This document shows positions 13,515-24,081 of a DNA stretch of 35,549 nt, in pieces. The stretch lies in assembly GCA_027451505.1 (NCBI GenBank), contig DAIDJD010000009.1, positions 1 to 35,549 on the forward strand. Direction: 5' to 3'. Position 1 is the stretch's first letter. The number at the start of each line of letters is the position of its first letter. The DNA comes from a candidate division FCPU426 bacterium. Its GTDB lineage: Bacteria; Oederibacteriota; JAJYGY01; DAIDJD01. The notes beneath the pieces were generated by a model. It saw only the letters and a list, made by a program, of their open reading frames with translations, did not search any database and was not told the DNA's origin. The position numbers and the translations under genes are program-made.

Positions 13515-13545
13515 GGACCACCCGACACGGCACTGGGTCTGCCGG
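13515..13545 (-). promoter_or_regulatory. Leader element E1, shared with the receiver-like gene
   Basis: The 31 bases before the sigma factor ATG begin CCGGCAGACCCAGTGCCG. The first 28 match element E2 (22733-22764) at 24 positions without gaps, ending in the same CGGGTGG and then an ATGG-GGAA start. E1 can fold as CGGCA-N7-TGCCG, and the ACCC in its loop could pair with the GGGT of the probable ribosome-binding site. Just upstream, 13549-13563 forms a second small hairpin (CAGCG-N5-CGCTG). Confidence 0.45.
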
Positions 13546-13568
13546 AATCAGCGGGTTTCGCTGTCCAT

Positions 13569-16500
13569 TCATTGTCCCCCCAATCCCGGCGCAACGTTGG
13601 GAATTGCGGGTCCACCCCCGGAAGCGCCCGGGTTCCGGTCCTCCGGGGGGCCCAGCACGACCAGCAGCGCATGGGATTCCCCGTCCAGGAGCAGCGGAAC
13701 GCGCGGGGACGGGCCCACCGGGAACTCCCGGCCGTCCAGTTCGAGGCGGGCCACGCCCCGGCACACCGAGCGCGGGTTCGTCACCCGGATCTCCCAACGC
13801 GTGCCGCCCCGCTCGAAGCGGATTTCGAAGCCCGGCCATTCGGGAGGGATGCAGGGTTCGATCCGCATCGAGTCCGCGTCCAGGGTCAGCCCCAGGATGG
13901 ATTCGATCCCCACCCGGTGCATCCAGGCGGCGGATCCCGTGTACCAACTCCAGCCGCCCCGGCCCACATGGGGCGGCATCGAGAGCACGTCACCGGCCAT
14001 CACGTAGGGCTCGATCCGGTATCGGAGCATGCCGGCCCTGGTCGAGGCGACCCTGGCGGGGTTGAGGGCGGCGAAGAGTTCGTGGGCCTTCGCGCCTTCC
14101 CCCAGGCCGGCGAACGCGGCCACCGCCCAGGCCGCGGCGTGGTTGTACTGCCCTCCGTTTTCGCGGATCCCCGGGGGATACCCGGCGATGTATCCAGGAT
14201 CAAGGCCCGCGCCGGTGAATGGCGGTTCCAGCAGGACCTGTTGGCCGCCTCCCTTCCTCCACAGGTGTTCCTCCAGCGCCGCCATGGCCCGCGCCGCCCG
14301 CGCCGGATCGGCGGCCCCCGAAAGGACCGCCCACGACTGGGCGATGGAATCGATGCGGCATTCCGACAGGGCCGCCGACCCCAGGGCGGTTCCGTCGTCG
14401 GAGAACGCGCGCCGGTACCAGTCCCCGTCCCAGCCCCGGCTTTCGACCGCGGCGACGACGTCCGCCGCCGCCGCGCTCCAGCGGGCCTCCCGGGGGCGCT
14501 CGCCCCGCGTCCGGGCCAGGACCGCGAAGCGCCTCAGGTTGTCCACCAGGAACCAGGCCAGCCAGACGCTCTCGCCCCTGCCCGCCCGGCCCACCCGGTT
14601 CATGCCGTCGTTCCAGTCGCCGCCGCCCATCAGCGGCAGCCCGTGGCGTCCGGTCGCGAGGCTGCGGTCGAGGGCCAGGGCGCAATGCTCGTACAGCGTG
14701 GCCGTGTCGCGCGTCGCGGTGGGGGTGAAATAGAGGTCGTCGGTCCCTTCGGCGAGCGGGGGGCCCTCGACGAAGGCGACCTCCTCCTCCAGGACGGCCC
14801 GGTCCCCGCTGGAGTCGACGTAGCGGGCCACCGCGTAGGGAAGCCAAAGGCGGTCGTCGGTGATGCGCGTGCGCACGCCCGCTCCGTGGGGCGGGTGCCA
14901 CCAGTGCAGCACGTCGCCCTCCTTGAACTGCTTGCCCGCGGCGCGCAGGAGGTGGTCCCGGACCGCCGCGGGGTTGGAATGGGCCAAGGCCACCACGTCC
15001 TGGAGCTGGTCCCTGAAGCCGTAGGCGCCCCCGCACTGGTACAAGGCCGTGCGCGCCCACAACCTGCAGCTGAGGGTCTGGTACAGGAGCCAGCGGTTGA
15101 GCATGAGGTCCATCGACCGGTCGGGGGTGCGCACCGTGAGGGCGCCCAGCGTCCGGTCCCAGAAGGACCTCACCTCCGCCAGCAGCCGGTCGAGGTCGCG
15201 GGCGCGGTAGTCCTCGACCAGTGCGGCGAGCCTCTCGCGGTCGGGCGCCTGCCCCAGAAGGACCCGGAATTCCGCGCTGGCGCCGGGTTCCAGGTCGACG
15301 GCGCGGCGCAGGCAGGCGCAGGGGTCCAGCCCCGCGCCGGCCCTTCCCGAAAGCGCCGCCCCCGTGCGCAGCGCCCGCGGTCGCCGGAGCCCGCCGTGCC
15401 GCCCCAGGAATTCCCTGCGGTCGCAGGTGTAGGATACGGGCCCGTTTCCGGCGTCCAGGAAGGCCAGCGCCTCGGGATGCGTCGGGTGGAAGGGGTTCCT
15501 GGCCGTCAACAGGCCCAGGGCGGCGTCCCACCCGGTGACGAGGGTGTGGGCCGTGGCCTGGGGCTCGGTCCCCAGCACCCAGGGAACGTAGGCCGTAAGG
15601 CTCAGGCGGCGCGGGCGCGCGGACACGTTCTCCACGACCAACCTTGAGATCTTGATGGGGTCGGACAGGGGCACGAACTGCGTCAGGACCATGCGGATGC
15701 CCCGCGCCGTCGACTCGAAGCGGCTGTAGCCCTGGCCGTGGCTGGCCCGGTAGCGGCCTCCCCTCAGGCGTATGGGCTGCGCGGTGGGGCCGAACAGGGC
15801 GCCGTTGTCCTCGTCGCGGACGTAGAAGGCTTCGCCTGCGGGGTCGCTGACGGGATCGTTGCTCCAGGGACTCAGTTTGTTCTCGCGGGAATTGCCCGAC
15901 CAGGTGGCGCCGGATCCCGACTCCGAGACCTGGAACCCGAACTGGGGATTCGCCACCACGTTGATCCAAGGGGCCGGGGTGTCCTTGCCCTCCTCGAGCG
16001 TCACCCGGTATTCCTGTCCGTCCTGCGCGAAGCCGCCCAGGCCGTTGGCCAATTCCAACGCGGACTCCGGGAGCGGGCCGCAGTCGGCCGCGTCCGCCGC
16101 GTCCAGCCAGGGCGGGGGGCTGGGGAGCGGCGCCACCCGCGCCAGTTGCTCGGAGAGGCTGCCGTGGCCGGCGTGCAGGACGGCCCGCGCCGCGCACAAC
16201 AGGAGGTCCCGTTCCCGCCGCGGCAGCAGGCAGGCCTGGACGACGTGGATGGCCCCGCCCCGGTCTCCGGGGCCCGGAGCCCGATGCGCGCGCGCGAGGT
16301 CCTCGATCCACCGCTGGAACTCCGCGGCGTAGGACGCGGGCTCCTCGTTCAGGACCACGAAATCCACGGCCAGGTTCTTGAGCCGCCAATATTCCCACGC
16401 CAGGACGAGTTGCCTGAGGATTTCCCGGTCCGAGGCCTCGTCCATCCTCAACAGCAACAAGGGAAGGGCCCCCGAGATGCCGCGCGACCAAAGGACACCC

Positions 16501-19500
16501 GGCCCTAGGCGGTTGGCGGCCATCAGTTCCGCGGGGGGCCTCAGCCGGGGATCCGGGTACAGGAGGTGCCCCGCCAGGGATTGGAAGAGACGGGCCTCCT
16601 CCGGCTGGATCCCGCGGTAGCGGAGCTGCACCTGGGCGTGGATCCGGGCCTGGCCGAACAGCCGTTCGACGTTCGCGCCGTCCCCGACTTTGGCGGCCAG
16701 GGCCAGGACCTTGGCGCGGCTGGAGGCGGCCATGGTCGCGAAGGTGACGTGCGCCTGGCCCCCGGCCTGCACGGTGATGCCCCGCCTGATGCTGAAGATC
16801 GGGTCCAGCACCGCGCCGACGCCCCCGGTGAAAAGCGCTCCCGGGGCCCCCAGGGCCGGATCGAAAATGTCGCGGCCCCGGCCGAGGAAGCGTGCGCGGT
16901 CGGTCTCGTGGCGCGCGTCCTCGGGTCCGCCGAGGCAGAGGTGGGCCGCCCAGGCCTCCTCCTCCGGCGATCCGCGGGGGCGCCGATGGGCAAGCAGGGC
17001 GCCCAGTTCGGGGACGTAATCCGTCTCGACGAACAGCTTGGCGAAGGCCTGGTGGGCCAGGTCGGCGTCCTCTTCCGAAAGGGACACTTCGGCATAGGAG
17101 GTCGCCTCGAGGTCCACCGGCCTGGTTCCGTGGTTGATGAAGGTGAGCCGGCGGACCTCCACATCGTCCTCGGGGCTGACCGCCACCTCGAGTCGGGTTT
17201 CGACGCCGCCGTCCCGGCGGACGAACTCGGCCTTGTCCTCCCTGAAGGAGACCCGGTAGCTGTCGGGCTCGGCGCGGCTGGGCAGGTAGGTGGCGCTCCA
17301 ATTCCGTCCGCTGTCGACGTCGCGGATGAGGATGAAGGTGCCCCAGGCCTCGACGGTGGGATCGGGCCGGAACCGCGTGACGCGGAGATGGTTCCAGCGG
17401 CTGAAGCCCCCTCCGGCGGACGTGAGCATGACGGAGTAGCTCCCGTTGCCCAGCAGGTGGGCCTGGGGAAGGGACTGGTGGGCGCCGTCATGGGAACGCT
17501 CTTGGGTCGGCGCCTCGTCGCGGAGGACCGCGACGTCCCCTTCATCCGCCTGGGCCGCGTGGGTGAGCACCACATTCCGCGGCGTGCGCTCCTGGAGCAG
17601 CAGCGAGGCCGACCGGAGCAAGGGATCGGCCAGGAACCTGGCCTGCATGGGCCCGTCCCGGAGGACATGCAGAAGCGCGATCAGGGTCATGCCCTGGTGG
17701 TGCGCCATATGGGTCCTCACGACGGCCCAGGCCCGGCCTTCGGGGAGGCGGTCCGGCCCGAAGTCCAGCGCGTCGAAGAAGCCATAGGTTCCCAGGGCGC
17801 CCATGGAGGCCAGGCGCTCCAGGTTTTCCGCGGCGACCGGCGGGTCCACCATCAGGGCGAGGGCCGTGGCATAGGGCGCCACGACCTGTTGACGCCCCAG
17901 CCCCTCCTTCATCCCCAGGCCGTCCACCCCGAAATCGGAGTACTGGTAGGTCATGTCGTTGTCGCGCAGGTTGTAGGCCGACTCCGACACGCCCCAGGGG
18001 ACGCCATGGTCCTTCCCGAAGGCCCTTTGGCGGCGGACCACCGTGCGGTACGTGTCCGCCAGGAGGCTGCGCGGCGGCGACCGCATCACCAGCAGGGGCA
18101 TCAGGTATTCGAACATGGATCCGGACCACGATAGCAGCGCGACGCCCTTCCCCGTGGCGGTGAACGGGCGCCCCAGGCGCGACCAATGCTCGGGGGCGAC
18201 GTCCCCCCGGGCCACCGCCACGAAGCTCGCGAGCCGCGCCTCGGAAGCGAGGAGGCCGTAGCAGCCGGCGTCCAGGCAGCCGCCCGCGGGCCGGTATCCG
18301 ACGGAAAGGAGGCGCTTGGAGGGGTCGTAAAGGAACCCGAAGTCCATGGCGGCGAAAAGGGCCTGGAGCCGCCCCGCCACCCGCCGCGCCCGGCCCGCGA
18401 GCCCGGCGGCGGCCCTCGCGGGGCCCTCGAGGCCCCTTCCCAGAAGGCCTTCGGAGGCCGAACCCAGCGGCGGGTTGAAGCCCGGCGGCAGGTCCATCAT
18501 GGGCGATCCGGCCAGGGCCGCGAGGTCGTCGTGCTCGCGTTGGAGGACGCCGGCCCAGCGCGCGAGTTCGGTGGCCGCCGGTTGGTCGTGCTCCTGGAGG
18601 ACGCTGGCCGCGATGTCGGCGAGCGTGTCGGCGGAGGCCTTGATTCGTCCCAACTGTTCGCGGAGCCCCGCGGCCCCCGCGGGTTCCTCGCGGACCGCCC
18701 CCGCGAGCCCCGCGAGCGCCGCCCGCAGGTCGAGGCGGTGCATGCCGGCCAGGCGCTCGAACGTCCCGGACAGGGCCGACTCCGCGGCGAGGTCCAGGCT
18801 GTCGGCCAGGCCCCGGCAGGCCCCCGCCGGGAACAGGGGCTGCTCCAGGAGTTCCAGCACGGATTGGCGGGCCACCAGGAGGTGCCCGGCCAGATTCCCG
18901 CTGTCCACGGTGGAGACGAACCGCGGCTCCAGGGGCCGGAGCGACTTCACGTCGTACCAATTCAGGAAATGGCCTCGGCACTTCTCCATCGCCTCCATGC
19001 TGTCGAGGGTGCGTTCGAGGCGGTCCAGGAACCGCGGGGCGGTCAGCCAGCCGAAGTCGCGAGCCGCCGAGCATGCGAGCAGGTACAGCCCCATGTTCGT
19101 GGGTGAGGTCCGTCCGGCCAGGGCCGGGCGGGGATCCTCCTGGTAGTTGTCCGGGGGCAGGTCGTGCGAGGACCCGTCCACGAAGGTCTCGAAATAATGC
19201 CAGGTGCGGCGCGCGGTGCGGCGCAGCAGGGCGACCCGCGCGGGGCCGAGCCGGCGGGCGGCGCGGCGGGGGCGCGGAAGGTCGAACCAGCGGCCCAGCG
19301 CGGGCGACGCCAGCCAAAGGGCCGCCAGGGCCAGGCCCAGGGGCCAGGCCGGGGGCCGGGCCAGGGCCAGCCCGGCCAGCATCGCGCAGCCCACGAGGGG
19401 CCCGGCCGCGAAGCGCCGGAGGGAGTCGCCCCGGCCCGGACTCCAGGGAACGGAGAAGCGCGCGGAGCTGGTCCATTCCAGCAGGCCGCGCCGGCTCACG

Positions 19501-22226
19501 AACAGGCGGAACAGCGCCCGGGCCACCGCGTCGGCGCTGCGGAGCGCATCGTAGGGGAGCAGGGCGGTCGAGAGCGCGAACTTCAGGATCCCGGCGCCCA
19601 GTTCCTCGGCCATGGAGCGCCAGTGGTTCCCCAGCGCGAAGTCCCGGCCCCTGGGGACCAATTCCGTGGCCAGGACCCCCAGCAGGGGGGGCAAGGCGAG
19701 GCCGGCGAGGGCGAAAGCCGACCACGCGGGCGCGTCGCCCGGGGGCAGGAACACCGCCGCGCACAGGAGCGCCAGGGACGCGGTGGGCAGCAGGCTGCGC
19801 CTCAGGTTGTCGGTCATCTTCCACCGGGCGACGATGCCCAGGCGGGCCGCGCGGCCGGCCCCGAAGCCCAGAATCCAGGGGAGCAGCTGCCAGTCCCCCC
19901 GCGTCCAGCGGTGTTCACGGGCGGCCGAAGCGCGGCCGTGCCCGGGTAGGCTCTCGAAAAGCTCGATGTCGCTCACCAGTCCCGCCCTGGCGAAGGAGCC
20001 TTCGAACAGGTCGTGGCTCAGCAGCGCGTTGTCCGGAACCCTGCCCGCGAGGCAAGCCTCGAAGGCGTCGACGTCGTAGATGCCCTTGCCCGCGTAGCTG
20101 CCCTCGCCGAAGAGGTCCTGGTACACCTCCGACACCGTGCCGACGTAGGGATCCGAACCGGCGCGGCCCGACCCCAGGCGGTTGAGCCAGGTGCTCTCCT
20201 CCTCAAAGGGGAGGATGGGGCTGATGCGGGGCTGGAGGATGCCGTAGCCGCGGATGACGCGGTCCCCGGAGGCGTTGAGGACCGGGCGGTTCAAAGGGTG
20301 CGCCATGGCCCCCACGAGCCTCCGGGCCGCTCCGCGCGGGAGGCGGGTGTCATGGTCCAGGGTGATGACGTAGCGCACCCCGGTCGGCGGCGCGGGCGCG
20401 TCCGCGCCGGAAACGGTGAAGCTGGTCCCGGGGGCGCCCCGCAGGAGCCGGTTGAACTCCATAAGCTTGCCGCGCTTGCGCTCCCAGCCCATCCAAACGC
20501 GGTCGCGCGCGTTGTAACGCCGGCGCCGGTGGTAGAGGCCGAACCGCGGGCCTCCGCCCGGGGCGGCCCCGTGGCGGCGGTTCAACTCCCCGATCCGCTC
20601 CCGCGCGTCCGCCAATAGGCGGTCCTCCCCCTCCAGCGTCTCGCCGGGGGCGTCGGCCCAATCCGTCAGCAGCGCGAAATGCAGATCCCCCTCCGGATTG
20701 GCGAAAAAATGCACCTCCAAGGATTCCATCAGCCCCTGGAAATCGCCATTGTCGGGCAGGATCACGGGCACGGCGACCACGGTGCGCAGGGACTCGGGGA
20801 CGCCCCCTTTGAGGGATAGAGCCGGCAGGGCGTGGGGCCGCCACAGCGCCATCACCGCGTGGTTGACGAGAGCCACGGCGATTTCGGAGGCCGGCAGGAG
20901 GGCCAGAAGGGCCACTCCCAGCGTCAGCGCCCCGCCCCCGCCGGGCGTGGACGCCCCCAGGGGCCAAGCCAGGGCCCCCACGGTCGCGCACCCGAGCGAG
21001 CCCAGGTAAAAGGGTGCGCCGAAGGATGTGACGGCCCGGCCCAGCCTGAGTCGCAGGGAGGGCCCATAGCCGATTCGGCGTTCGAAGGCCTCGCGGGCGG
21101 GTCCGATGAGGCATTCCCCCACGTCGCAGGATGCGTCGCCCGGCGGAACCTCCCCGGCCCGGCCGGCGCGGGCGGCCAGGCGGGCCACTTCGACCTCGCC
21201 GTGGCGGCTCCCGCGCGCCAGGTCCTCGATCGCGTGGCGGTAGCGGTCCCGGGTGGCGAAATTGAGCCCCGCGAAATCGAAGGCCCCTTCGAACACCCCA
21301 TCCACGAGGCTGAGGCGTTCGACGAAGGAGGGCCAGTCGTACAACGCGATGGCCCGCAGGCTGGCGATCACGTTCTCGCAGGTGGCGTTGCGGGTGGCTT
21401 GTTCCTGGTGATCGCGCCGGACCGCGGCTTCGGGGGTGGTCCCCTGGACCCCGAGCCTTTCCGACAGCCAAGCCAGCATCGGGCCGACCGATGCGTCCTG
21501 GTCCCCGAGCCGCCGCTGGAGGCGGGCGCTGAAGGCCAACGGCGGCATCCGGTCGCCCAGGCGCTCCCGCGCCAGGGCCGCGGACAGGACCGGGCCGGGC
21601 CCCAGGCCCAGGAGCAGGTCGGCGAGCCGGTCGGCTCGGCCGGTCGACCTGAGGTTGACGACGATGGCCCGGGCCTGACGCCGCAGGTTCTCCAGAAGCA
21701 CCATGCGCAGGGTGATGGGCAGGGCCCAGAGTTCCCCGATCATCAACGGTTGGGCGCGCTGGTAGGCCGCGACGAAGCGCAGCAGGGTCTCCGCATCGAA
21801 GTGGCTGTCGCAGTGCGCGACCCAGTTCCAGGCCAACGCGTAGATCCTGGGGAATCCCCTCAGTCCGCCATGACCCAGCTTCGGAAGGCCCCGGTAGTAG
21901 GCGGAGGGGAGTTCCTCGCGGATGGCCGCGTCCAGGTCCGACACCAAATGGAAATTGCCGAGCAGCGCCCTCGCCGCCGGCGGTACCGGTCGACCCAGCG
22001 CCGCGGCCTCCGCCAACTCCCGCTGGCAACGGGCGAGCACGCGGCCGTTCTCCCGAACCCTGGGCGCGAGGCTGCGCCCGAAACGCACACGCGGCGTCCC
22101 CAGGTGGTCCGCGGCCAGGGCCTGGGCGAGCCCCTCCAGGCGCTCCACCGAGAAGATCTCCTCGCGGATGGCGTTTTCGGGGGGGTCCTCGAAAGGCGCG
22201 TCCCAGCGCTCCGCCGCGACCGCCAT
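13569..22226 (-). CDS. ndvB: Cyclic beta-1,2-glucan synthase (NdvB/Cgs type, GT84-GH94)
   Basis: This is a 2885-residue giant of the usual NdvB/Cgs size. An N-terminal cytoplasmic region (about 1-390) is followed by membrane spans near 393-460. The GT84 domain has LDHDTRLP near 623 and HRWTRGDWQL near 770, the Q/HxxRW-type motif. More spans lie near 810-855 and 940-980. A glycoamylase-like region (YRPAGGCLDAGCYGLLASEARLA) sits near 1310. Then come two GH94-type beta domains (NGSYSVMLTSAGGGFSRW near 1595; WINVVANPQFGFQVSESG near 2085) and the GH94 catalytic part with GGGDWNDGMNRVG near 2535. The enzyme would build, phosphorolyse and cyclise beta-1,2-glucan from UDP-glucose at the inner membrane for osmoadaptation or the envelope. 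No NdvA-type exporter is nearby. The start has a poor ribosome-binding site; a leader ORF ends one base before it. Confidence 0.95.
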   Translation of the reverse strand: MAVAAERWDAPFEDPPENAIREEIFSVERLEGLAQALAADHLGTPRVRFGRSLAPRVRENGRVLARCQRELAEAAALGRPVPPAARALLGNFHLVSDLDAAIREELPSAYYRGLPKLGHGGLRGFPRIYALAWNWVAHCDSHFDAETLLRFVAAYQRAQPLMIGELWALPITLRMVLLENLRRQARAIVVNLRSTGRADRLADLLLGLGPGPVLSAALARERLGDRMPPLAFSARLQRRLGDQDASVGPMLAWLSERLGVQGTTPEAAVRRDHQEQATRNATCENVIASLRAIALYDWPSFVERLSLVDGVFEGAFDFAGLNFATRDRYRHAIEDLARGSRHGEVEVARLAARAGRAGEVPPGDASCDVGECLIGPAREAFERRIGYGPSLRLRLGRAVTSFGAPFYLGSLGCATVGALAWPLGASTPGGGGALTLGVALLALLPASEIAVALVNHAVMALWRPHALPALSLKGGVPESLRTVVAVPVILPDNGDFQGLMESLEVHFFANPEGDLHFALLTDWADAPGETLEGEDRLLADARERIGELNRRHGAAPGGGPRFGLYHRRRRYNARDRVWMGWERKRGKLMEFNRLLRGAPGTSFTVSGADAPAPPTGVRYVITLDHDTRLPRGAARRLVGAMAHPLNRPVLNASGDRVIRGYGILQPRISPILPFEEESTWLNRLGSGRAGSDPYVGTVSEVYQDLFGEGSYAGKGIYDVDAFEACLAGRVPDNALLSHDLFEGSFARAGLVSDIELFESLPGHGRASAAREHRWTRGDWQLLPWILGFGAGRAARLGIVARWKMTDNLRRSLLPTASLALLCAAVFLPPGDAPAWSAFALAGLALPPLLGVLATELVPRGRDFALGNHWRSMAEELGAGILKFALSTALLPYDALRSADAVARALFRLFVSRRGLLEWTSSARFSVPWSPGRGDSLRRFAAGPLVGCAMLAGLALARPPAWPLGLALAALWLASPALGRWFDLPRPRRAARRLGPARVALLRRTARRTWHYFETFVDGSSHDLPPDNYQEDPRPALAGRTSPTNMGLYLLACSAARDFGWLTAPRFLDRLERTLDSMEAMEKCRGHFLNWYDVKSLRPLEPRFVSTVDSGNLAGHLLVARQSVLELLEQPLFPAGACRGLADSLDLAAESALSGTFERLAGMHRLDLRAALAGLAGAVREEPAGAAGLREQLGRIKASADTLADIAASVLQEHDQPAATELARWAGVLQREHDDLAALAGSPMMDLPPGFNPPLGSASEGLLGRGLEGPARAAAGLAGRARRVAGRLQALFAAMDFGFLYDPSKRLLSVGYRPAGGCLDAGCYGLLASEARLASFVAVARGDVAPEHWSRLGRPFTATGKGVALLSWSGSMFEYLMPLLVMRSPPRSLLADTYRTVVRRQRAFGKDHGVPWGVSESAYNLRDNDMTYQYSDFGVDGLGMKEGLGRQQVVAPYATALALMVDPPVAAENLERLASMGALGTYGFFDALDFGPDRLPEGRAWAVVRTHMAHHQGMTLIALLHVLRDGPMQARFLADPLLRSASLLLQERTPRNVVLTHAAQADEGDVAVLRDEAPTQERSHDGAHQSLPQAHLLGNGSYSVMLTSAGGGFSRWNHLRVTRFRPDPTVEAWGTFILIRDVDSGRNWSATYLPSRAEPDSYRVSFREDKAEFVRRDGGVETRLEVAVSPEDDVEVRRLTFINHGTRPVDLEATSYAEVSLSEEDADLAHQAFAKLFVETDYVPELGALLAHRRPRGSPEEEAWAAHLCLGGPEDARHETDRARFLGRGRDIFDPALGAPGALFTGGVGAVLDPIFSIRRGITVQAGGQAHVTFATMAASSRAKVLALAAKVGDGANVERLFGQARIHAQVQLRYRGIQPEEARLFQSLAGHLLYPDPRLRPPAELMAANRLGPGVLWSRGISGALPLLLLRMDEASDREILRQLVLAWEYWRLKNLAVDFVVLNEEPASYAAEFQRWIEDLARAHRAPGPGDRGGAIHVVQACLLPRRERDLLLCAARAVLHAGHGSLSEQLARVAPLPSPPPWLDAADAADCGPLPESALELANGLGGFAQDGQEYRVTLEEGKDTPAPWINVVANPQFGFQVSESGSGATWSGNSRENKLSPWSNDPVSDPAGEAFYVRDEDNGALFGPTAQPIRLRGGRYRASHGQGYSRFESTARGIRMVLTQFVPLSDPIKISRLVVENVSARPRRLSLTAYVPWVLGTEPQATAHTLVTGWDAALGLLTARNPFHPTHPEALAFLDAGNGPVSYTCDRREFLGRHGGLRRPRALRTGAALSGRAGAGLDPCACLRRAVDLEPGASAEFRVLLGQAPDRERLAALVEDYRARDLDRLLAEVRSFWDRTLGALTVRTPDRSMDLMLNRWLLYQTLSCRLWARTALYQCGGAYGFRDQLQDVVALAHSNPAAVRDHLLRAAGKQFKEGDVLHWWHPPHGAGVRTRITDDRLWLPYAVARYVDSSGDRAVLEEEVAFVEGPPLAEGTDDLYFTPTATRDTATLYEHCALALDRSLATGRHGLPLMGGGDWNDGMNRVGRAGRGESVWLAWFLVDNLRRFAVLARTRGERPREARWSAAAADVVAAVESRGWDGDWYRRAFSDDGTALGSAALSECRIDSIAQSWAVLSGAADPARAARAMAALEEHLWRKGGGQQVLLEPPFTGAGLDPGYIAGYPPGIRENGGQYNHAAAWAVAAFAGLGEGAKAHELFAALNPARVASTRAGMLRYRIEPYVMAGDVLSMPPHVGRGGWSWYTGSAAWMHRVGIESILGLTLDADSMRIEPCIPPEWPGFEIRFERGGTRWEIRVTNPRSVCRGVARLELDGREFPVGPSPRVPLLLDGESHALLVVLGPPEDRNPGASGGGPAIPNVAPGLGGQ

Positions 22227-22227
22227 C

Positions 22228-22281
22228 TCAGCGGCCCGGGGCCGGCGGCGCCGGGTGGGGATGCTTCGGGTTTGCCATCAT
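22228..22281 (-). CDS. Possible 17-residue leader ORF coupled to ndvB
   Basis: A short frame starts ATGATG after GGCGGGGG and encodes MMANPKHPHPAPPAPGR. Its TGA is separated from the ndvB ATG by one base (TGA-G-ATG). Such spacing allows termination and re-initiation, which would explain the lack of a good ribosome-binding site at ndvB. The proline-rich peptide (six prolines in 17) could slow ribosomes. It is too short for the ORF track, and whether it is translated is unknown. Confidence 0.35.
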   Translation of the reverse strand: MMANPKHPHPAPPAPGR

Positions 22282-22327
22282 GTCCCCCGCCACGGTCGCG
22301 TGGCTCCTTCGGCGCGGAACGCCCCGG

Positions 22328-22732
22328 CTACCCCACCGGGGGAAGGCGGCTTTGTTCCTCCAGGACGCGCTTCAACCGTCCGAGGTCCGGCGGCCAGTCG
22401 AGGAAGTCGACGGCGCCCATCTTGACGGCGGCCACCACCTCCGCGAGCCTTGGCGTCGCGGCCGCCAGGACCACCGCCGCGCGGCCATGTTCCATAAGGA
22501 GGTCCGCCAGAAGGTCGACGCCTTCGGCGGCGCAGCAAACCACGATGACGTCGGGCAGGGATCGGCGCGTTCTCGCGACGGCCTCCCCGAGCGACGACAC
22601 CGGGGGCACCCTGTACCCTTGCCGTTTGAGGAAGCCGTTGAGCTTCCCGGTCCGGACTCCGGGGGCCGCCACGATCAGGGCCGTTCGCGGCGGATCCCCT
22701 CCGCGGGGGGTTGGCCTGGATGTTTCCGCCAT
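22328..22732 (-). CDS. Degenerate receiver-domain (pseudo-receiver) protein
   Basis: A 134-residue stand-alone protein with the fold pattern of a response-regulator receiver: TALIVAAPG (beta 1), PDVIVVCCAAEGVDLLADLL (beta 3 to alpha 3), AVVLAAATPRLAEVVAAVKMGAVDFLDWPPDLGRLKRVLEE (beta 4 to alpha 5). Every phosphorylation residue is changed: the acidic pair is Ala22-Ala23, the phospho-Asp is Cys66, the Thr/Ser of beta 4 is Ala, and the Lys is Trp113. It therefore cannot work as a normal phospho-switch. The segment resembles NtrC-type receivers, but there is no output domain. The ATG at 22732 was chosen over the track's upstream starts because GGGTGG precedes it. ndvB follows on the same strand after about 100 bp. 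Confidence 0.75.
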   Translation of the reverse strand: MAETSRPTPRGGDPPRTALIVAAPGVRTGKLNGFLKRQGYRVPPVSSLGEAVARTRRSLPDVIVVCCAAEGVDLLADLLMEHGRAAVVLAAATPRLAEVVAAVKMGAVDFLDWPPDLGRLKRVLEEQSRLPPVG

Positions 22733-22764
22733 GATTCCACCCGCCTGGGCACTGGGTTTGCCGG
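22733..22764 (-). promoter_or_regulatory. Leader element E2, shared with the ECF sigma gene
   Basis: The 32 bases before the receiver-like gene read CCGGCAAACCCAGTGCCC on the minus strand and continue to CGGGTGG and the ATG. They match E1 at 24 of the first 28 positions. Read on the plus strand the same bases are GGGCAC-N5-TTTGC, which resembles a sigma-54 -24/-12 element and would point at the hemerythrin gene. E1 has the same layout with no plus-strand gene behind it, so I favour a minus-strand leader role. Confidence 0.45.
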
Positions 22765-22802
22765 TTGGATCGTTCCTGCCGTCTGGGAATGCCCCGGCCG
22801 CG

Positions 22803-22835
22803 CCTTTTATTCCCCCTTTGGCGACGGAATAAAGG
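22803..22835. repeat. Inverted repeat between the receiver-like and hemerythrin genes
   Basis: CCTTTTATTCC (22803-22813) and GGAATAAAGG (22826-22835) are inverted copies differing by one bulged T, with a 12-base spacer. This AT-rich dyad stands out from its surroundings and lies between two divergent genes. It could be a regulator site or a hairpin in the hemerythrin 5' leader. Confidence 0.45.
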
Positions 22836-22910
22836 CCCCCCGCCGGGACATGGACTCTCGCCCAACGCCCGCGCATCCGCGCCGACCGGAGGGCCCCTAA
22901 GGGAGCTTCG

Positions 22911-23348
22911 ATGAACGCGATCCAAATCCTCGAAAAGGACCACAAGTCCGCCAAAAGCGCCATCCAGGAGATCGGAAGGAGCAAGGGCCAGAAAAAGAAG
23001 AGCCTGTTCGAGGACTTCAAGGAGGAACTCGAGAGGCACGACCGCGTCGAGGAGCAGGTCTTCTATCCCGCGGTCCAGGCGCACTCCCTGGCGGGGGACG
23101 TTCCGGCGATGGACCGGCAGGCCCACGAGGCCGTCGGGACCGCGCTCGGCCTCTTGGAAAAGATGCCCATTTTCGACCCGAGGTGGGATCCCACCTTCCG
23201 GGACATGCGCATCCAGCTCCTCAGGCATTTCGCCGACGAGGAAGGCAGGATCTTCCTCGCCGTGAAAAAGGCGATGAAACCCCAGGAGTTGGAGGACCTC
23301 GGCGGCAAGATGCGGACCTTCAAGGCGGGCCGCCCGCAGCCGGCCTGA
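22911..23348 (+). CDS. Hemerythrin-like HHE-domain protein
   Basis: The 145-residue all-helical protein has the HHE cation-binding pattern: His11 (EKDHKSA), His43 and Glu47 (ERHDRVEEQVFYP), His72 (RQAHEAVG), His106 and Glu110 (LRHFADEEGRIF). These are the expected ligands of a di-iron site. There is no signal peptide, so it is cytoplasmic. Such proteins bind oxygen or NO or act in iron and stress responses, and the nitrogen-oxide-type cluster 10 kb away could be functionally linked. AAGGGAG precedes the ATG. The gene is divergent from the receiver-like gene, with an AT-rich dyad between them. Confidence 0.9.
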   Translation: MNAIQILEKDHKSAKSAIQEIGRSKGQKKKSLFEDFKEELERHDRVEEQVFYPAVQAHSLAGDVPAMDRQAHEAVGTALGLLEKMPIFDPRWDPTFRDMRIQLLRHFADEEGRIFLAVKKAMKPQELEDLGGKMRTFKAGRPQPA

Positions 23349-23444: not shown

Positions 23445-23789
23445 TCAGTCTCTGCCTTCCCCGAAGGAGTCCAGGATCAGCGCCGCCATGGCGTCCATGC
23501 ACCGCCGGGCATCGTGGCCCTCGATCCGCAGTCGTATCCTCCCGCCGCGGGGTACGCAGGCCAGCATCATGGAAACGATGCTCTTGCCGTCCGCCACTTG
23601 GCCGTTCCCGTGGACCTCAATCGCGCTGGAGAAGGACCGGGCTATCTGGACGATCTTCGCCACCGGCCTGAGGTGCATGCCGTGTATATGGGTGATCTCG
23701 AATTCGCGTTCGTGGACCGGGGGCCCGGGATACGGCCCGCCGAGCCCCCCGGCGGGAGCGTTCACCGGCGGCCTTGGGGTGATGCCCAT
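23445..23789 (-). CDS. HPr-family phosphocarrier protein with N-terminal extension
   Basis: The C-terminal ~85 residues match HPr: FEITHIHGMHLRPVAKIVQIAR with the active-site His39, and VADGKSIVSMMLACVPRGGRIRLRIEG with Ser70 at the same 31-residue distance as His15 and Ser46 in classical HPr. Both the PEP-dependent site and the HPr-kinase site are therefore kept. About 25 extra residues rich in Pro and Gly precede the domain. The ATG has AAAGGA upstream, and I see no later start before the domain. No EI, EII or HPr kinase gene is nearby, so a regulatory (NPr-like) role is as likely as sugar transport. Confidence 0.85.
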   Translation of the reverse strand: MGITPRPPVNAPAGGLGGPYPGPPVHEREFEITHIHGMHLRPVAKIVQIARSFSSAIEVHGNGQVADGKSIVSMMLACVPRGGRIRLRIEGHDARRCMDAMAALILDSFGEGRD

Positions 23790-24081
23790 GCGTGTCCTTT
23801 CAACGGCTTCGCTGTCAGGCCCGGCCCGTCAAACGGGGCGCAGGGCGGAGCTTTTCCCGCGGGTGGTCCGGGGTCCCGAGGGCCTAGGCGCAGGCTCCCT
23901 CAGCGAATGCCCGCGCGGGGCCCGTTATTCCCTGTTCCGGGACGCTCCGCGGTCTCTTGGGGGTCTTGGCCGCCGGGCCGCTGGGGCGCCGCCGCCTGGC
24001 CCCGGACCGAACGCGTGGATCCGGACGGATCGGGTAGGGACGTCGAAAATTAGGTGTGGACTTGAATGACGGCGCGCTATC
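23790..24081. other. Divergent intergenic region between HPr and ArsR-type genes
   Basis: No gene is seen in these 292 bp. TTGACG occurs on the minus strand near 23830 but without a convincing -10 box. The last 50 bases before the ArsR-type gene are less GC-rich (GTCGAAAATTAGGTG) and probably hold its promoter. No clear dyad was found. Confidence 0.4.

Follow-up and report, generated by a model that had tools for sequence, protein, structure and literature searches.

A 17-base leader block and a GGAATAA promoter motif around a candidate autoregulated ECF sigma factor operon in an Oederibacteriota bacterium

In the genome of a candidate division FCPU426 bacterium (assembly GCA_027451505.1), closely similar leaders precede the genes on both sides of a large ndvB-like gene. 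This raises the question of whether a pseudo-receiver, a glucan synthase and an ECF sigma factor belong to one circuit and whether the leader is what ties them together, as the original prediction had held by invoking a shared promoter or a shared RNA control. The locus was analysed within contig DAIDJD010000009.1, of which the whole stretch of 35,549 nucleotides is hereafter referred to as the window.

Gene order and the repeated leader block

The three genes were found on the minus strand in the order receiver (22732–22328), ndvB (22226–13569) and ECF sigma (13514–12915). The first encodes a stand-alone pseudo-receiver of 134 aa, whose sole Pfam match, Response_reg, fell below the cut-off, and which carries Cys at the usual phospho-Asp position in a BLAST alignment to its paralogue. 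The second encodes an ndvB-like cyclic beta-glucan synthase of 2885 aa with two GH94 supersandwich domains, a GH94 catalytic domain and a glucoamylase-like domain. The 199-aa product of the third matched Sigma70_r2 and r4_2 above the Pfam cut-off and comprises regions 2 and 4 only, as expected of an ECF factor. The ndvB and sigma genes are co-directional and separated by a gap of 54 bp, most of which is occupied by the leader of the sigma gene (E1), and a terminator scan of both gaps in the unit returned none. Given these terminator-free gaps and the extent of E1, the latter probably lies between cistrons, a position that speaks against its being a promoter; E1 could also hold a promoter of its own. 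Judged from the sequence, the receiver, ndvB and sigma genes probably form one operon. A short ORF of 17 codons (MMANPKHPHPAPPAPGR; 22228–22281, minus strand), preceded by a G-rich stretch, stops just 5′ of the ndvB ATG and could encode a leader peptide.

This arrangement was not encountered among relatives: no ECF or receiver relative lay beside ndvB in any of 17 regions around ndvB-like genes, one same-order genome (76% complete) gave no ECF match at 1e-15, and a scan of named genomes yielded distant ECF homologues only.

The leaders before the ATG of the sigma gene (E1, CCGGCAGACCCAGTGCCGTGTCGGGTGG, 13518–13545, minus strand) and before that of the pseudo-receiver gene (E2, CCGGCAAACCCAGTGCCCAGGCGGGTGG, 22737–22764, minus strand) were confirmed to be identical at 24 of 28 bases. 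At this base composition, an identity of at least 24/28 has a chance of approximately 1.5e-9 per comparison. The runner-up pair among the 19 plausible gene leaders of the window reached 18/28, and the next-best 28-mer anywhere in the window matched E1 at 20 bases. The likeness of the first codons, also predicted, held only as ATGG(T/C)GGAA in the E1 and E2 genes. Both leaders contain a 17-base block of the pattern CCGGCA-R-ACCCAGTGCC, represented by CCGGCAGACCCAGTGCC in E1 (13529..13545, minus strand), which lies in the ndvB–sigma gap 31 nt 5′ of the sigma ATG, and by CCGGCAAACCCAGTGCC in E2 (22748..22764, minus strand), which lies 32 nt 5′ of the receiver ATG.

Genome-wide leader statistics were obtained from pattern searches with reversed controls. 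In the organism's own genome (2.36 Mb), the exact block occurs in E1 and E2 only, and allowing at most one mismatch gave three matches against one for the reversed control. The third copy (E3), with one mismatch, belongs to a truncated paralogue of the ECF gene on another contig, C212; it lies 33 nt 5′ of the ATG of this paralogue, which begins with ATGAAGCCA. A 14-base core at two mismatches gave 101 matches against 152 in the control, and this lack of excess under looser matching indicates that the block is private to these genes rather than a genome-wide motif; its three copies all precede gene starts. Among 58 other genomes, two one-mismatch matches were retrieved, neither of which showed a gene-start context. 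A coding explanation of the block was rejected because the distances of 31 and 32 nt to the ATG place the two copies in different reading frames, and a dispersed repeat was dropped as an explanation given just three copies, each before the same kind of genes.

The C212 ECF paralogue (L006:2119-2439) shares 74% identity with the sigma factor over 89 residues and has kept region 2 and lost region 4, so that it is either a gene in decay or a sigma factor consisting of region 2 alone; a further GGAATAA site directly follows it. C212 also encodes a paralogue of the receiver (37–38% identity). As its GC content is 67% versus 72% for the window, C212 could derive from a closely related organism whose DNA was binned together with that of this one, in which case the E3 comparison would be orthologous rather than paralogous.

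The GGAATAA promoter motif and its putative regulon

A putative ECF-dependent promoter, GGAATAA-N15-CATTC (22787..22813, minus strand), was located 49 bp 5′ of the E2 block. Back to back with it, a divergent variant, GGAATAA-N16-CAT (22826..22851, plus strand), faces a hemerythrin HHE-domain gene (22911..23348, plus strand). Another putative promoter, GGAATAA-N15-CATT (23906..23931, minus strand), faces an HPr-domain (PTS) gene (23445..23789, minus strand), whose ATG lies 142 bp downstream of the −35 element. A one-mismatch site, GGAATCA-N15-CATT (13544..13569, plus strand), overlaps the 5′ end of E1 and points antisense into ndvB. E3 repeats the layout of E2, with motif-to-block spacings of 52 bp and 49 bp, respectively, and block-to-ATG spacings of 33 and 32 nt.

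The motif is rare in this genome and strongly clustered. With at most one mismatch, GGAATAA-N15-CATT was matched three times in the window against 0.06 expected and eight times in the whole genome against one in the control. The window contig and C212 (4 kb) together hold seven of these eight, which precede the receiver, HPr, the ECF and receiver paralogues, a DUF5670 gene and a small membrane gene, with one facing away within E1. Of 24 homologous ECF genes in a related family, 20 were preceded by GGAATAA at a distance of at most 110 nt (shuffled sequences: mean 0.16, maximum 3). Likewise in 20 of the 24, GGAATA(A/T) was followed by a −10 element at a spacing of 14–16 bp. This element reads CACT in 18 genes, CATT in one and GACT in one. 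Since CACT rather than CATT prevails there and the sigma factors share just 34–45% identity with the present one, the pairing of the motif with this sigma factor is put forward as an inference. In the genomes of that family, inspection by eye also placed the motif before several genes resembling exported or lipoprotein-like proteins. GGAATAA and ECF sigma factors are mentioned together in work on SigH/SigE of Corynebacterium.

The motif thus stands upstream of the entire receiver–ndvB–sigma unit and is common to homologues, as expected of autoregulation if the three genes form one operon. The proposal of a single circuit is well supported through GGAATAA-N15-CATT and the probable operon; what did not hold is the shared leader as its promoter, and the link among the three genes is most likely a separate sigma-factor promoter.

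A proposed feedback operon and the role of the block

We regard it as reasonably probable that the locus is a positively autoregulated ECF operon with a small regulon, in which the leader of the sigma gene came to be common to the receiver by duplication or capture. The sigma factor would steer RNA polymerase to GGAATAA-N15-CATT promoters, and transcription starting before the receiver would read through the receiver, ndvB and finally the sigma gene, closing a feedback loop on the assumption of co-transcription across 9 kb. Further targets would be the divergent promoter at hemerythrin, the one at HPr and four on C212. The block is most likely transcribed, as it lies between cistrons in E1 and 3′ of the promoter in the other two leaders. 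It would accordingly belong to the region in which translation of the sigma gene is initiated and to the 5′ leaders of the receiver gene and the ECF paralogue. E2 shares its promoter, spacing, block and first gene bases with the sigma-type leaders while the protein is unrelated, which makes a duplication or capture of the leader likely. E2 probably originated in one of two ways: the receiver and ndvB ended up between an ancestral sigma promoter–leader and the sigma gene, or the receiver captured a copy of the sigma leader.

Whether the block does anything of its own is a separate matter, and the possibility that it reflects shared ancestry only, as a recently duplicated leader without function, falls somewhat short of an even chance. 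E1 and E3 precede paralogues with 76% coding identity, against which a block identity of 15/17 is unexceptional (P = 0.20) and consistent with plain descent, so that selection acting on the block is no more than possible. E2 shows the same promoter–leader layout and similar first codons. On the other side, the block is preserved although the flanking leader sequence aligns poorly, and it is better preserved than third codon positions, which are 62% identical (P = 0.02).

A doubtful alternative is RNA control, in which the block would be an RBS-occluding stem or pseudoknot, or a site for an sRNA or protein, through which translation of the sigma factor and of the receiver is jointly tuned. Its transcribed position, the fixed distance of 31–33 nt from the ATG and the presence of GGCA-N7-TGCC in all three copies are consistent with such a role. 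The small stem originally predicted, with ACCC in its loop opposite the GGGT of the ribosome-binding site, fared poorly: the predicted folds of E1–E3 do not surpass those of shuffled sequences (z = −0.13 to +1.56), the loop-to-RBS pairing is disrupted in E3 (AACC/GAGT), and the stem is invariant and hence offers no covariation. A stable, covarying fold over the RBS, as in thermometer- or riboswitch-like leaders, was accordingly not found in these three sequences. The narrower form of this idea, in which the leader is a common sRNA or protein site that coordinates the translation of sigma factor and pseudo-receiver, adding a second layer of control to the transcriptional feedback, is still less likely. 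Some related-family ECF leaders offer a possible precedent for RNA control: those of L190, L194, L191, L189 and L185 are long, with predicted hairpins over the RBS (CCCGTGG...CCACGGG in L190; CCGCAGTCG...CGACTGCGG in L191), and 3/5 fold at z of −2.3 to −3.4, which suggests that these sigma factors may be RNA-controlled.

It is very unlikely that the block is a DNA-level promoter or operator, such as a sigma-54 −24/−12 element serving as the sigma gene's own promoter: the GGCA...TGC register and GG-N10-GC fit and RpoN is encoded in the genome, but the consensus TGGCAC-N5-TTGC(A/T) is not matched (no T at −26, T at −15 or A/T at −11) while exact canonical sites occur elsewhere in this genome, transcription would start approximately 3–9 nt before the ATG and delete the RBS, and the central block bases are conserved without need.

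Relation to known systems and significance

Autoregulation is the rule for most ECF operons (PMC8103513). The present locus resembles such operons in its putative positive feedback promoter, with the sigma gene within the target operon, and in a −35 element starting with GGAA and followed by the −10 element some 15–16 bp on (PMC8103513). It differs in that the sigma gene comes last, behind a pseudo-receiver and a glucan synthase, in that an adjacent anti-sigma gene was not recognised, and in the repetition of a 17-base leader block. With the alphaproteobacterial EcfG–NepR–PhyR system (PMC8103513) it shares an ECF sigma factor tied to a receiver and a promoter of the GGAA / C-TT type. In contrast to PhyR, in which a sigma-like domain is fused to a phosphorylatable receiver, the 134-residue protein is a receiver only, with the phosphoacceptor apparently absent; NepR was not recognised, and the −35 element is GGAATAA rather than of the AAC type.

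For a lineage represented here by fragmented assemblies only, the analysis yields the promoter motif of an as yet uncharacterised group of ECF factors, together with a testable candidate regulon comprising the receiver, the cyclic glucan synthase, the sigma factor, hemerythrin, HPr and the DUF5670 protein. An enzyme of the cyclic-glucan type is thereby placed under probable direct ECF control. Should the block act on RNA, a translational layer would be added to the ECF feedback.
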